A stretch of DNA of 64,000 nt from Planctomycetota bacterium. Its GTDB lineage: Bacteria; Planctomycetota; Phycisphaerae; Phycisphaerales; Phycisphaeraceae. The notes under the pieces were generated by a model. It was not told the DNA's origin. It saw only the letters and a program-made list of their open reading frames with translations, and did not search any database. Positions 33,263 to 44,220 of the stretch are shown piece by piece (positions within the stretch are counted from its first letter, which is position 1; every line of letters starts with the position of its first letter). Made by a program: the position numbers and the translations under genes. The stretch spans positions 3,658,001 through 3,722,000 of the forward strand of contig CP066225.1 of NCBI GenBank assembly GCA_016350165.1, given 5' to 3'.

Positions 33263-33502
33263 ATGAGTAAACGAATCAGAAAGAAGTGCCACATGGGCGG
33301 GTCCAGTGACCGACAAGGTGAGAAATCACTGCTTCAGCTATTACGCGAAGCAGATAGTGACAGGCCAGTCGAAGGCAACAGCCTTGGACGTGGTCTTGTA
33401 CGTCTTGCGCACCTTGCCACAGCAGTTCATCAAAATGAGATGCTTGCCAATCTGGATGCTTCAGACGATTCGTTACTTAAGCCAGCATCAAGCGGAGCTT
33501 GA
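33263..33502 (+). CDS. Possible small hydrophilic protein ahead of flgF
   Basis: This 79-codon frame starts shortly after the sigma-54 promoter and has codons like its neighbours. The product is charged and helical in the middle, with no known domain. A rival frame (33306-33509) overlaps it. The stretch may instead be an untranslated leader, since it ends in two GGA-loop hairpins. Low confidence. Confidence 0.35.
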   Translation: MSKRIRKKCHMGGSSDRQGEKSLLQLLREADSDRPVEGNSLGRGLVRLAHLATAVHQNEMLANLDASDDSLLKPASSGA

Positions 33503-33533
33503 TCGGTAACCAGAACGTCATGCGGAGCGTGAC
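33487..33533 (+). promoter_or_regulatory. Two GGA-triloop hairpins in the flgF leader
   Basis: ATCAAGC-GGA-GCTTGAT (33487-33503) and GTCATGC-GGA-GCGTGAC (33517-33533, one G-U pair) are 7-bp stems with different arms but the same GGA loop. GGA in a hairpin loop is the CsrA/RsmA recognition element. The second ends 18 bases before the flgF ATG. Confidence 0.7.
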
Positions 33534-34396: not shown

Positions 34397-35203
34397 ATGG
34401 CAATTTCGGCCCTACATTCAGCAGCTTCAGGATTATCTTCGCTGTCAACTTCGCTTGACGTGATCTCAAATAACCTTGCGAACATGAGCACCAAAGGTTA
34501 CAAGGCTTCGCGCGTCAATTTCGAGGATTTGCTTTATCAGCAAAAAGCACAGCCTGGTGTGCAGAATGATGAATCAGGTTTCCGTCCACATGGTTTACAA
34601 GTTGGTTTAGGTACACGTGTCAGCGGTACCAATATTGACTTTACACAAGGTGCACCTGTGGAGGATGCGGGTGATTTTTCCGTAGCAATCAATGGCGAAG
34701 GTTTCTTTCGTGTGCAAGTACTAAGCGGTCTGTCTGAAGACGGTTTTGGCTACACACGCGCAGGCAACTTTGCAACCAACAGCGAGAATGAACTTGTTCT
34801 TGGCACAACAAGTGGCCCAAGACTTGATCCGCCAATTCAGGTACCTGATGAAGCTGTTGATACACGAATTACTGATACAGGTCGTGTGTTTGCCATCATG
34901 GGCGATGGTACGGAAGAAGAATTGCAATCAATTCAGTTGTTTACCTTTGCTAATGCATCAGGTTTAACACAAATTGGTGGCAATGTTTATGTAGAAAGTG
35001 TCTCTTCAGGTCCAAACATTGAAGGTACACCAGGTGAAGGTCCATTTGGTCGCATACAACACGGTTACCTTGAATCTTCAAACGTCAATTCAACAACAGA
35101 ATTGATCACACTGATTACAACACAACGTGCTTTCGAAATGAACAGCCAAACAATCAAGGCTGCAGATGAAACACTCCAAGTAATCAGCAACTTGAGACAA
35201 TAA
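34397..35203 (+). CDS. flgG: Flagellar distal rod protein FlgG
   Basis: This 268-residue protein starts at MAISALHSAASGLSS after the ribosome site CAGGAG; the frame upstream to 34364 is not used. NNLANMSTKGYKASRVNFEDLLYQ is the classic FlgG N-terminal motif, including the FlgG-specific region after it. The C terminus has ESSNVNSTTELITLITTQRAFEMNSQTIK. FlgG forms the rigid distal rod crossing the periplasm. It fits with flgH and flgI downstream, which encode the rings around it. Confidence 0.95.
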   Translation: MAISALHSAASGLSSLSTSLDVISNNLANMSTKGYKASRVNFEDLLYQQKAQPGVQNDESGFRPHGLQVGLGTRVSGTNIDFTQGAPVEDAGDFSVAINGEGFFRVQVLSGLSEDGFGYTRAGNFATNSENELVLGTTSGPRLDPPIQVPDEAVDTRITDTGRVFAIMGDGTEEELQSIQLFTFANASGLTQIGGNVYVESVSSGPNIEGTPGEGPFGRIQHGYLESSNVNSTTELITLITTQRAFEMNSQTIKAADETLQVISNLRQ

Positions 35204-35230
35204 AATAATCGCATACAGCGGTTGATTAGA

Positions 35231-35442
35231 TAGCAGGACGCTACTAGTGGCACGGATGCCAAAACTTAAGGATGGATAAGATGCAGAAGCGGAGCTTCTG
35301 GCAAGTACGAAAGAGGAGGAGGGGATGAAAGGTCGGAGGGGAGAATAAATGGGGGGATAACGTGAGTCGTAGACCCACAATCGCAGGATGCACTGCTAGG
35401 GAAAAGGATGTCCCTAGCTAATGAAGGATCAGGATGATGATC
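35231..35442 (+). ncRNA. Array of GGA-loop hairpins; candidate CsrA sponge/leader
   Basis: The gap between flgG and flgA holds at least five hairpins with GGA in the loop: TAGC-AGGAC-GCTA (35231), TGGCA-CGGA-TGCCA (35248), CTTA-AGGATGGA-TAAG (35265), CAGAAGC-GGA-GCTTCTG (35284) and GCTAGGG-(10)-CCCTAGC (35395), whose loop reads AAAAGGATGT. A weaker GATC pair around AGGATGAT lies at the flgA start. Several unpaired GGAGG runs lie at 35313-35342. The density resembles CsrB/RsmZ RNAs. It may act inside the mRNA or as a processed RNA. Confidence 0.6.
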
Positions 35443-36519
35443 AGCAAAACATGGATGTATTTTGTTGGTATGCTTGCGGCTATCGTGACATGCACCAGTA
35501 CAGATGCGAACAGCATCCGACTGCATGATAGCGTCGTCGTAGACAGCCCCACTGTCGAGCTTGAGGAAATTGCAGAAATCGAAGGTGAGTACGCACAGAA
35601 GTTTGCGAAACTCACCATCGGTTCATTTACCAAGTCTTCAGAGCTCACAATTAAAATGGAAGATATACGTCAGATTCTGACTAAAGAAAAAGCCAATTGG
35701 GGTTTACTCTCTTTAGCTGGTTTCAAAAAGACAATAGTTCAATCAAAGCTACCACTTCCTGAAGTTATCGTTGATAAATCTATCGAGCCGATCATCAGCA
35801 ATACGATCGTTCCTGTCGATATGGAGAAGCGAATTTCTCTGTTGAGCATGGTAGAAGATCATTTTGCATCACGTCTGCGCACATCGTTCAAAGATTTGCG
35901 AATCGAGTTCAAATCTAATGATCTCGAAAAACTTTCTGTTAGCACGGTTGGAAAACAATACGAAATTTCACCACAAGGGCGCTCGCTGTTAGGCAGAGTG
36001 TCTATTGTCGTTAATCAATACGAAAACGCCCGGATAGTGGAAAGTTTTCGTATTTACGCAAATGTGACTAAGCGTGTTGTTGGTTTAGTATCCCAAACTT
36101 CATTACGTGCAGGGGATGTTATCCCTGTAGATGCCGTTGAACTGATGGATGTATGGGTTAATAAACAAGATGTTCAGCCTATAGCAAGCATTCTGCATAT
36201 CACAGGCCAAATTCTCAGAAGGCCAATTCGTAAAGGTGCTCTGCTTTACGCAAGAGATGTAAAGCTGCCTGCTCTTATCAAAAAGAATCAACTAGTTGAG
36301 GTTCGCGCTGTTTCAGGTGCACTTGTCGTGACAACCGGTGCTAAAGCAATGCAAGATGGCTGTTTGGATGAAGTCATCACTGTACGTCATCTCGGCTCAA
36401 AAGAAACATATAGCATCGTTGTGACTGGTAAAGGGCGTGGCACAACAGCAATTCCGCAGTTGCAGTCACCCGTAAATCAAGAACCAAATCAAACATTCGC
36501 GCATAGGGGAATCAAATAA
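35434..36519 (+). CDS. flgA: Flagellar P-ring assembly chaperone FlgA
   Basis: This 361-residue exported protein has a signal peptide (hydrophobic ~6-20). The C-terminal ~150 residues are the SAF/ChapFlgA domain: TSLRAGDVIPVDAVELMDVW, ILRRPIRKGALLYARDVKLP and KNQLVEVRAVSGALVVTTGAKAMQDG. FlgA helps FlgI assemble into the P ring in the periplasm. The N-terminal ~200 residues are longer than in E. coli and hold no other known domain. It overlaps flgH (TAATG), so the two are translationally coupled. Confidence 0.9.
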   Translation: MMISKTWMYFVGMLAAIVTCTSTDANSIRLHDSVVVDSPTVELEEIAEIEGEYAQKFAKLTIGSFTKSSELTIKMEDIRQILTKEKANWGLLSLAGFKKTIVQSKLPLPEVIVDKSIEPIISNTIVPVDMEKRISLLSMVEDHFASRLRTSFKDLRIEFKSNDLEKLSVSTVGKQYEISPQGRSLLGRVSIVVNQYENARIVESFRIYANVTKRVVGLVSQTSLRAGDVIPVDAVELMDVWVNKQDVQPIASILHITGQILRRPIRKGALLYARDVKLPALIKKNQLVEVRAVSGALVVTTGAKAMQDGCLDEVITVRHLGSKETYSIVVTGKGRGTTAIPQLQSPVNQEPNQTFAHRGIK

Positions 36520-43094: not shown

Positions 43095-43150
43095 GAAGGC
43101 AGGATGCCTTCAAGCTCGTTGGAGTAACGAGTTGATGATTCCAGGATGGA
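43095..43150 (+). promoter_or_regulatory. Three GGA-loop hairpins in the fliW leader
   Basis: GAAGGC-AGGAT-GCCTTC (43095-43111), CTCGTT-GGAGT-AACGAG (43115-43131) and TCCA-GGA-TGGA (43140-43150) follow one another in the 130 bases before fliW. The stems differ while the GGA stays in the loop. This is what repeated CsrA sites should look like. Confidence 0.7.
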
Positions 43151-43168: not shown

Positions 43169-43624
43169 ATGATCATGATGATCAATACCTCACGTTTCGG
43201 TGAAATGGAAGTCGATGACAACCGCGTCATCACTTTCGAAAAAGGTTTGCTCGGCTTTCCCAAATACAGGCACTATGTCCTGATTGAGGCCGGACAGGAC
43301 AGCTTCTTTTGGTGGCTTCAGTCTATCGAATTGCCCGAACTCGCATTCGTCGTGACTGACCCCAGCCTCTTTGTTCCTACCTATCGCGTCCCGCTTCGGG
43401 AAGAACAGATGCGCGATATGGGCATGGAATCTGTCGATGACGCTCAAGTCTTTGTCATCGTCAACAAACGCGATAATGTCCTCACTGGCAACCTTCAAGG
43501 ACCACTCGTCATCAATGTTAGTCAGCGTACAGGTGAACAACTCGTCCTCAGTGACAGGCGTTTTACCACACGCGTACCTCTGATCGAGATCGGTTCGAAT
43601 CTGCAAAAAGCAGCCTCGGCCTAA
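43169..43624 (+). CDS. fliW: Flagellar assembly factor FliW
   Basis: This 151-residue protein has the family motifs FEKGLLGFPKYRHYVLIE, FWWLQSIELPELAFVVTDP and NLQGPLVINVSQRTGEQLVL. FliW binds CsrA and flagellin in turn: free flagellin takes FliW away, and the freed CsrA then blocks flagellin translation. csrA and the flagellin gene follow directly, so the whole loop is encoded together. The start may also be the third or fourth codon (MMIN). The leader holds three GGA hairpins, which suggests that CsrA also controls its own antagonist. Confidence 0.95.
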   Translation: MIMMINTSRFGEMEVDDNRVITFEKGLLGFPKYRHYVLIEAGQDSFFWWLQSIELPELAFVVTDPSLFVPTYRVPLREEQMRDMGMESVDDAQVFVIVNKRDNVLTGNLQGPLVINVSQRTGEQLVLSDRRFTTRVPLIEIGSNLQKAASA

Positions 43625-43794: not shown

Positions 43795-44064
43795 ATGCTG
43801 GTGCTTTCCCGTCAACGCGACGAAACGATCATGATTGGTGATGAAATTGAAATCACCGTCGTAGATATTCGAGGGGATAAAGTCCGACTAGGCATCAACG
43901 CACCACGTCAAGTGCAAGTTCACCGTAAAGAAGTGTACGAAGCAATTAAACGTGAGAACGCTGAAGCCGCTCGAGTACAGGTCGAAGATCTAAACGTCGC
44001 AGACAAAAATCTGTGTGGAAGAATTAGTAAACTCGCCACACATCGTCATAACAGGAACGGTTAA
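43795..44064 (+). CDS. csrA: Carbon storage/translational regulator CsrA
   Basis: This 89-residue RNA-binding protein starts at [20 protein letters not shown]; the open frame upstream to 43750 is leader. The dimeric beta fold is conserved, with the RNA-binding N-terminal LVLSR and the C-terminal [18 protein letters not shown] (Arg44-equivalent in RQVQVHR). A C-terminal extension of about 28 residues, rich in R and H, goes beyond the 61-residue E. coli form. CsrA binds GGA in hairpin loops at ribosome sites. Such hairpins occur throughout this flagellar block. It sits between fliW and flagellin. Confidence 0.96.
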
Positions 44065-44092: not shown

Positions 44093-44180
44093 AACTCGAA
44101 TCTCTTATTCATATAGCTCTTATGTGTTTCATGGAAGAAGCAGCTGAGATTCGAGCCTAAACCACAGCTTAAAAGCTGAA

Positions 44181-44220
44181 ATCGAGTAGGAACTCGATTG
44201 GACAATCAAGGAGGATTGTC
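44181..44220 (+). promoter_or_regulatory. Tandem GGA hairpins at the flagellin ribosome site
   Basis: ATCGAGT-AGGA-ACTCGAT (44181-44198) and GACAATC-AAGGAG-GATTGTC (44201-44220) are two perfect 7-bp hairpins. The second holds the Shine-Dalgarno in its loop, immediately before the ATG at 44222. A third hairpin, CAGCTT-AA-AAGCTG (44165-44178), precedes them. The arrangement matches the two CsrA sites known in the Bacillus subtilis hag leader. Confidence 0.85.

Follow-up and report, generated by a model that had tools for sequence, protein, structure and literature searches.

The 230-nt gap that separates the flgG stop codon from the flgA ATG (35204–35433) probably functions as an untranslated intercistronic leader of flgA that acts as a multi-site CsrA operator, as judged from its sequence. 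The gap is purine-rich and was analysed on the plus strand of the window, the 64,000-nt stretch of CP066225.1 under study. It carries a series of GGA sites that are conserved in a second species of the genus (G001), where the stems around them covary. The same flagellar cluster encodes a cognate CsrA and FliW, and matching sites are found in other leaders of the cluster.

The gap contains 15 GGA trinucleotides on the plus strand, a count reached by 8 of 1000 dinucleotide shuffles (mean 9.9), as well as eight GGAT (reached by 1/1000) and five GGATG (0/1000). The plus-strand maximum of GGA per 230 nt in the whole window is 17, at 35224. A first-pass annotation of this DNA had drawn attention to several GGAGG runs; three are indeed present, but this number is ordinary, as 124 of 1000 shuffles reach it. 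Clusters of three GGATG within approximately 80 nt were considered as a signature and rejected, being too common in both genomes to be diagnostic: the pattern occurs 94+94 times here and 113+132 times in G001, against 1+1 and 4+10, respectively, for the reversed-pattern controls. The gap is therefore set apart by its hairpins and their conservation and not by GGATG density.

The minimum-energy fold of 35204–35450 (z -2.96; 1 of 200 shuffles equally stable) features hairpins at 35231, 35248, 35265, 35284 and 35395, followed by a sixth at the flgA start. The first-pass description of five or more GGA hairpins in a row is thus borne out at all five named positions, though the hairpins are unequal in strength (Table 1) and the one at 35265 exhibited no negative energy in the hairpin scan. 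As in CsrB and RsmZ, several GGA motifs lie in hairpin loops, three of them strong and the others weaker. Three GGA-in-loop hairpins fold at -4 kcal/mol or better, which no shuffle among 200 matches, and the G001 gap also has three (1 of 200 shuffles reaches this). The plus-strand hairpin peak per 240 nt falls in the gap region at cut-offs of -2, -3 and -4; with cut-offs of -1 and -5, the peak that is reported first is elsewhere (22334 and 22501).

Table 1. Features of the flgA leader and of related leaders and genes in the cluster (window positions; energies in kcal/mol).
Feature	Position	Strand	Remarks
Intercistronic flgA leader with GGA array	35204–35433	+	15 GGA, 5 GGATG; 235-nt gap kept in G001
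Hairpin 1, weak, GGA in loop	35231–35243	+	-2.1; G001 counterpart longer and stronger (-9.1)
Hairpin 2, loop CGGA	35248–35261	+	-4.9; one double-sided change, loop identical in G001
GGA in TTAAGGATGGAT	35270–35272	+	Mostly unpaired; weak surrounding stem of this genome not found in G001
Hairpin 3, loop GGA, 7-bp stem	35284–35300	+	-7.6; two double-sided and one single-sided change, loop identical in G001
Purine block AAGAGGAGGAGGGGATGAAAG	35311–35331	+	Identical in G001
Conserved block GTGAGTCGTWGACCCACA, no GGA	35362–35379	+	Nearly identical in G001
GGA in CGCAGGATGCAC	35386–35388	+	Largely paired here; in G001 it lies in the loop of a -7.3 hairpin
Hairpin 5, loop AAAGGATG, 8-bp stem	35395–35418	+	-12.7, strongest; best SELEX match; two double-sided changes, loop identical in G001
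AGGA of likely flgA Shine-Dalgarno (GAAGGATCAGG ATG)	35425–35428	+	Its GGA starts 20 nt after the hairpin 5 GGA
Start hairpin GATCAGGATGATGATC	35427–35442	+	-3.8; GGA at 35432–35434 enters the start codon; G001 stem far shorter
flgA, first gene past the leader	35434–36519	+	ChapFlgA, 66.7 bits
First GGA-loop hairpin before flgF	33487–33503	+	Overlaps end of ORF 33263–33502
Second GGA-loop hairpin before flgF	33517–33533	+	Hairpin scan, comparison with G001
GGA-loop hairpin GAAGGCAGGATGCCTTC before fliW	43095–43111	+	Identical in G001
Second hairpin before fliW	43113–43133	+	GGA at loop edge (loop GGAGT or GAG depending on counting)
fliW, flagellin-binding CsrA antagonist	43175–43624	+	PF02623, 119.9 bits
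csrA	43795–44064	+	PF02599, 90.3 bits; matches solved CsrA/RsmE chains
GGA-loop hairpin before fliC	44180–44199	+	Three double-sided changes in G001
Hairpin GACAATCAAGGAGGATTGTC, fliC Shine-Dalgarno in loop	44201–44220	+	GGA 21 nt past the GGA of the upstream hairpin

CsrA binds GGA in hairpin loops, with a SELEX consensus of RUACARGGAUGU and a CsrB repeat of CAGGA(U/A/C)G described in PMC7652899. The loop AAAAGGATGT (35402–35411) agrees with ACARGGAUGU at nine of ten positions, as had been remarked at first reading. The SELEX ligands described in the same source mostly have loops of 6 nt and no more than four contiguous pairs (PMC7652899). The hairpins at 35284 (3-nt loop, 7-bp stem) and 35395 (8-nt loop, 8-bp stem) depart from this optimum, which counts against a CsrA operator, as do the GGA at 35386, mostly paired in this genome (approximately 0.2 unpaired), and the Shine-Dalgarno GGA, which is partly paired.

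The array extends into the flgA Shine-Dalgarno and start codon, which are overlain by GGA at 35426 and 35432 both here and in G001, and control in cis is indicated for this reason. The GGA of hairpin 5 (35406) precedes the Shine-Dalgarno GGA by 20 nt in both species and the start-codon GGA by 26 nt. Both features are those of CsrA-repressed leaders of the pgaA/flaA type, with GGA over the ribosome-binding region and a hairpin GGA within reach of the same dimer. With a strong hairpin placed 20 nt ahead of the Shine-Dalgarno GGA, CsrA would be expected to block flgA translation.

The following mechanism is predicted from these sites. CsrA encoded in the same cluster would bind the GGA loops of the flgA leader, and a dimer anchored at 35395–35418 could reach the GGA in the Shine-Dalgarno or in the start codon, so that the bridging dimer would shut off translation of flgA. 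The genes from flgA to flgL overlap or sit less than 30 nt apart, and the block flgA-H-I-J-N-K-L would be lowered along with flgA through these overlaps, the tight spacing and possibly polarity. With the upstream sites, CsrA occupancy at the leader would be higher and each transcript would sequester more of the protein. FliW, released upon flagellin export, would then remove CsrA and the leader would open. CsrA binding, the direction of its effect, the operon coupling and the gating by FliW are the parts of this scheme that we infer.

FlgA was searched for in 81 genomes and found in 70, counting the present one. From these 70, 30 loci were retrieved, of which 29 were readable (L031 gave no reading), comprising this genome, G001 and 27 from outside the genus; gaps were measured up to the start of the FlgA alignment and include early codons in some cases. 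G001, the only same-genus genome compared, has a flgG-flgA gap of 235 nt with 16 GGA, and its FlgA is 50% identical to that of this genome. The 27 gaps outside the genus contain between 0 and 6 GGA each and no comparable array; among them, the six GGA of L008 lie in a GGAGTAGG-like run and L019 has a gap of 586 nt. The refuting condition named in the first-pass annotation, a short or hairpin-free gap in close relatives, does not hold in G001; beyond the genus the array is absent from the 27 gaps. Scanning a genome collection with FlgA for a third genus member returned 103 pattern matches, none of which was a relative by tblastn. A scan with FliW gave 93 relatives, of which 80 were kept, and the nearest are named Phycisphaeraceae or Phycisphaerae. 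The GGA array is established in two species only.

Within these two species, the best-conserved part of the leader is the end that adjoins and includes the Shine-Dalgarno and start codon. The last 72 nt are identical at 63 positions, compared with 39% identity (347/890) at the fourfold sites of seven genes in the cluster. RNAalifold, run on the two sequences, reports double-sided changes in the three strong stems of the gap, and direct counting gives five double-sided changes and one single-sided change with identical loops. The resemblance to CsrA sites that had been pointed out earlier is upheld by these compensatory changes in G001 and by the presence of csrA and fliW downstream.

The first-pass annotation had gone further and read the gap as a CsrB-like array, holding that such density is known only in CsrA-sequestering RNAs. 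This is incorrect, as the noncoding leader of E. coli pgaA, which has six CsrA sites, works in cis (PMC7652899). A discrete RNA similar to CsrB or RsmZ, transcribed from the gap or processed out of it, would fit the row of GGA hairpins, and RsmZ is the sole Rfam family touched in both species, where it covers the same pair of hairpins (E 4.6 and 0.55). These matches score 10.4 and 13.8 bits, however, against a gathering score of 44. A consensus scan of 34900–35600, which promoters of this phylum may not fit and which does not extend to other promoter types, found no promoter-like or terminator-like site, and the array continues into the flgA start. Such an RNA is considered very unlikely. Nor does the gap stand alone in this genome, being one of four leaders in the cluster with strong GGA-loop hairpins. 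TGGCAC near 35248 was also considered as a sigma-54 site and rejected, as its spacing does not fit the consensus and its bases form a covarying hairpin.

The Rfam search of the gap yielded nothing at the gathering threshold, and at a relaxed threshold only matches of E 0.55 or worse in both species. This also bears on a leader of another type, whether riboswitch, leader peptide or antitermination element, whose richness in GGA would be coincidental; such a leader is the least probable of the readings. It would account for the strong conservation of the GGA-free block GTGAGTCGTWGACCCACA. The candidate leader peptide is an Arg-rich short frame at 35272–35328 of 18 codons (19 in G001), which by eye stays in frame over a 3-nt indel. 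The frame past this short ORF is not kept (by eye), no Rfam family matches the gap of either species below E 0.55, and a leader of this type leaves unexplained both the GGA-filled loops and the recurrence of the motif at other leaders of the cluster. The block GTGAGTCGTWGACCCACA could fold into a small hairpin.

The cluster genes flgF, flgG, flgA (ChapFlgA), flgH, flgI, flgK, flgL (a flagellin N-terminal match), flgN, fliW, csrA and flagellin are supported by Pfam, and the gene called flgJ has no Pfam match above the cut-off. The csrA and fliW genes lie approximately 8 kb downstream of the gap, and their products are 97% and 93% identical to those of G001, respectively (FlgA 50%). Each genus member encodes two csrA genes, one of them in the cluster. 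The second csrA is more divergent and located outside the flagellar cluster (G000:C1:3536254-3536415, L002, in this genome; G001:C1:732996-733157, L064). FliW is encoded in 76 of the 81 genomes. A small ORF before flgF (33263–33502) has no Pfam match and shows 75% identity with its G001 counterpart across 80 aa; the first flgF GGA-loop hairpin overlaps its end.

Strong GGA-loop hairpins are found in four cluster leaders of this genome, those of flgF, flgA, fliW and fliC. At -4 kcal/mol or better, the flgF leader has two, the fliW leader one and a further hairpin whose loop has GGA at its edge, and the fliC leader three. The csrA leader of this genome contains only weaker GGA-loop hairpins and none at -4 or better, which counts against the operator reading. 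Upstream of fliC the spacing from GGA to GGA is 21 nt in both genus members; the hairpin at 44125–44142 has no partner in G001. Nine hairpins, including the three of flgA, could be paired by place with G001, giving 47 unchanged pairs, 2 one-sided changes and 11 two-sided changes, with all nine loops identical. The absence of broken pairs is partly by construction, since the nine were picked as formed in both species, and the informative part of this comparison is the constant loops together with the double changes.

Across the plus strand, GGA occupies 9 of the 19 loops of non-coding hairpins in the cluster vs 44 of 477 elsewhere (Fisher p 4e-5). Taken leader by leader against shuffles, only flgA and fliC are far beyond expectation in both genus members; the flgF leader is borderline in one of the two, and the fliW leader by itself is not significant. 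Among 200 shuffles, 5, 45, 29 and 25 reach the counts seen at the flgF and fliW leaders in the two members, and this also speaks against the operator. A second flagellar region of the genus (L120–L123), which contains flgD and flhA, has 13 non-coding GGA-loop hairpins listed per species, with one or two before each of five genes in both species. No leader with an array like that of flgA was found in this region in either species. These hairpins suggest that predicted CsrA targets extend past the flagellar cluster.

The operons of 20 relatives (L096–L115; 16 from the same family and 4 from the same order) were selected from 79 searched genomes outside the genus for their FlgA match and contig extent; tblastn did not find flgA in 4 of the 20 or flgN in 1. 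A GGA-loop hairpin is present within 120 nt upstream of flgF in 17/20, fliW in 17/20, csrA in 17/20 and fliC in 20/20. Upstream of the other operon genes it occurs in 5/20 for flgG, 1/16 for flgA, 1/20 for flgH, 5/20 for flgI, 7/20 for flgJ, 3/19 for flgN, 1/20 for flgK and 0/20 for flgL, a comparison that is partly one of non-coding with coding sequence. The strand and shuffle controls are free of that fault. The flgF, fliW, csrA and fliC leaders total 29, 23, 18 and 24 GGA-loop hairpins, vs 0, 0, 1 and 1 on the opposite strand and 9, 12, 7 and 8 in the largest of 40 shuffles. The flgA leaders of the relatives (n=16), whose stretches include coding sequence, have nine GGA-loop hairpins on the opposite strand, one on the gene strand and a shuffle maximum of five.

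In 19 of the 20 relatives a nearly invariant hairpin carries the fliC Shine-Dalgarno in its loop, 14 of them with exactly GACAATCAAGGAGGATTGTC, and this hairpin is a good marker of CsrA-FliW flagellin control in the order. The flgF Shine-Dalgarno is found in a hairpin loop in 12/20 relatives (among L097–L111), mostly as ACGGAG, AAGGAG or AGGGAG, with stems that vary between genomes. In this genome flgF has no such hairpin and has two other GGA-loop hairpins instead. With the four-leader pattern seen across the order in these 20 operons and the flgA array known from two genus members, the array seems to have been added at the level of the genus to a CsrA-FliW leader system of greater age. Its rarity, with a GGA-loop hairpin in 1 of 16 flgA leaders of the relatives, counts against the operator reading. 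On these data, CsrA sites would be expected at four fixed leaders throughout the order, their GGA loops constant while the stems differ, and one genus would possess a further and far denser point of control partway along the operon.

The array might instead be mainly a sponge within the mRNA, titrating CsrA and derepressing targets such as fliC with only minor control of flgA. The distal hairpins (35248–35300) are the best argument for titration, as they lie more than 100 nt before the start codon and are kept with compensatory changes although occlusion of the ribosome needs none; the sites at the start codon are the best argument for an operator. The C. jejuni flaA and Salmonella fim leaders are described as precedents that titrate CsrA (PMC4894983). 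For a pure sponge, however, the Shine-Dalgarno and start codon in the best-conserved end would be superfluous, and the mRNA would have to be highly abundant. The distal sites of the pgaA leader, moreover, also work in cis (PMC7652899). Titration as the main role is therefore judged unlikely. As a contribution alongside the operator, titration of CsrA by the mRNA, with the timing of filament synthesis that the first-pass annotation had envisaged, is possible.

A tentative extension of the operator reading combines both roles. Approximately seven CsrA sites, positioned within the flagellar operon, after the rod genes (flgF, flgG) and before the genes of the ring, hook junction and filament, could both lock downstream translation and titrate CsrA from the fliW and fliC leaders. 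This would constitute an mRNA-embedded checkpoint of assembly order without a CsrB-type small RNA, laid on the order-wide CsrA-FliW leader system. If this is true, each new operon transcript would pull CsrA off the fliW and fliC leaders. The system allows cheap and exact tests of whether additional CsrA sites make repression tighter or serve titration.

Among the papers listed from an open-licence library, none had a title dealing with CsrA sites in planctomycetes; PMC4682653 mentions CsrA, FliW and Planctomycetes, and the CsrA-FliW literature found concerns other groups, for example Campylobacter, Bacillus, Clostridioides and Geobacter. CsrB/CsrC and RsmX/Y/Z share with the gap the row of many GGA hairpins, but they are discrete trans-acting RNAs, whereas in the gap the consensus scan found no promoter-like or terminator-like site, Rfam gave no match at the gathering threshold, and predicted sites lie over a start codon. 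The leader of Salmonella fimAICDHF is, like the sponge reading of this array, an mRNA leader that antagonises CsrA, but it is reportedly no CsrA target itself, while the flgA start contains predicted sites (PMC4894983).

The flaA leader of C. jejuni likewise belongs to a flagellar mRNA with a GGA pair approximately 20 nt apart and FliW as the antagonist; its hairpin GGA and Shine-Dalgarno GGA are separated by 21 nt, near the 18-nt optimum, and the one leader is described as both repressed and titrating CsrA (PMC4894983). By analogy with flaA, operator and titration roles can coexist in a single leader such as that of flgA. The flaA leader differs in having two GGA motifs at a flagellin gene vs approximately seven here at flgA, and its nearer counterpart in this cluster is the fliC leader. 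The B. subtilis hag leader is, like flaA, a CsrA-FliW flagellin leader. C. jejuni CsrA also bound the flaG, flaB and flgI leaders, and since deletion of csrA hardly altered those proteins, binding by CsrA need not mean regulation (PMC4894983). The pgaABCD leader of E. coli is alike in being a noncoding leader with multiple sites and with sites in the start region, where two of them cover the Shine-Dalgarno and start codon and the distal ones serve Rho-dependent termination (PMC7652899). It differs in that pgaA is the first gene of its operon, whereas the flgA leader lies in mid-operon, in another phylum and in a flagellar cluster that encodes FliW.
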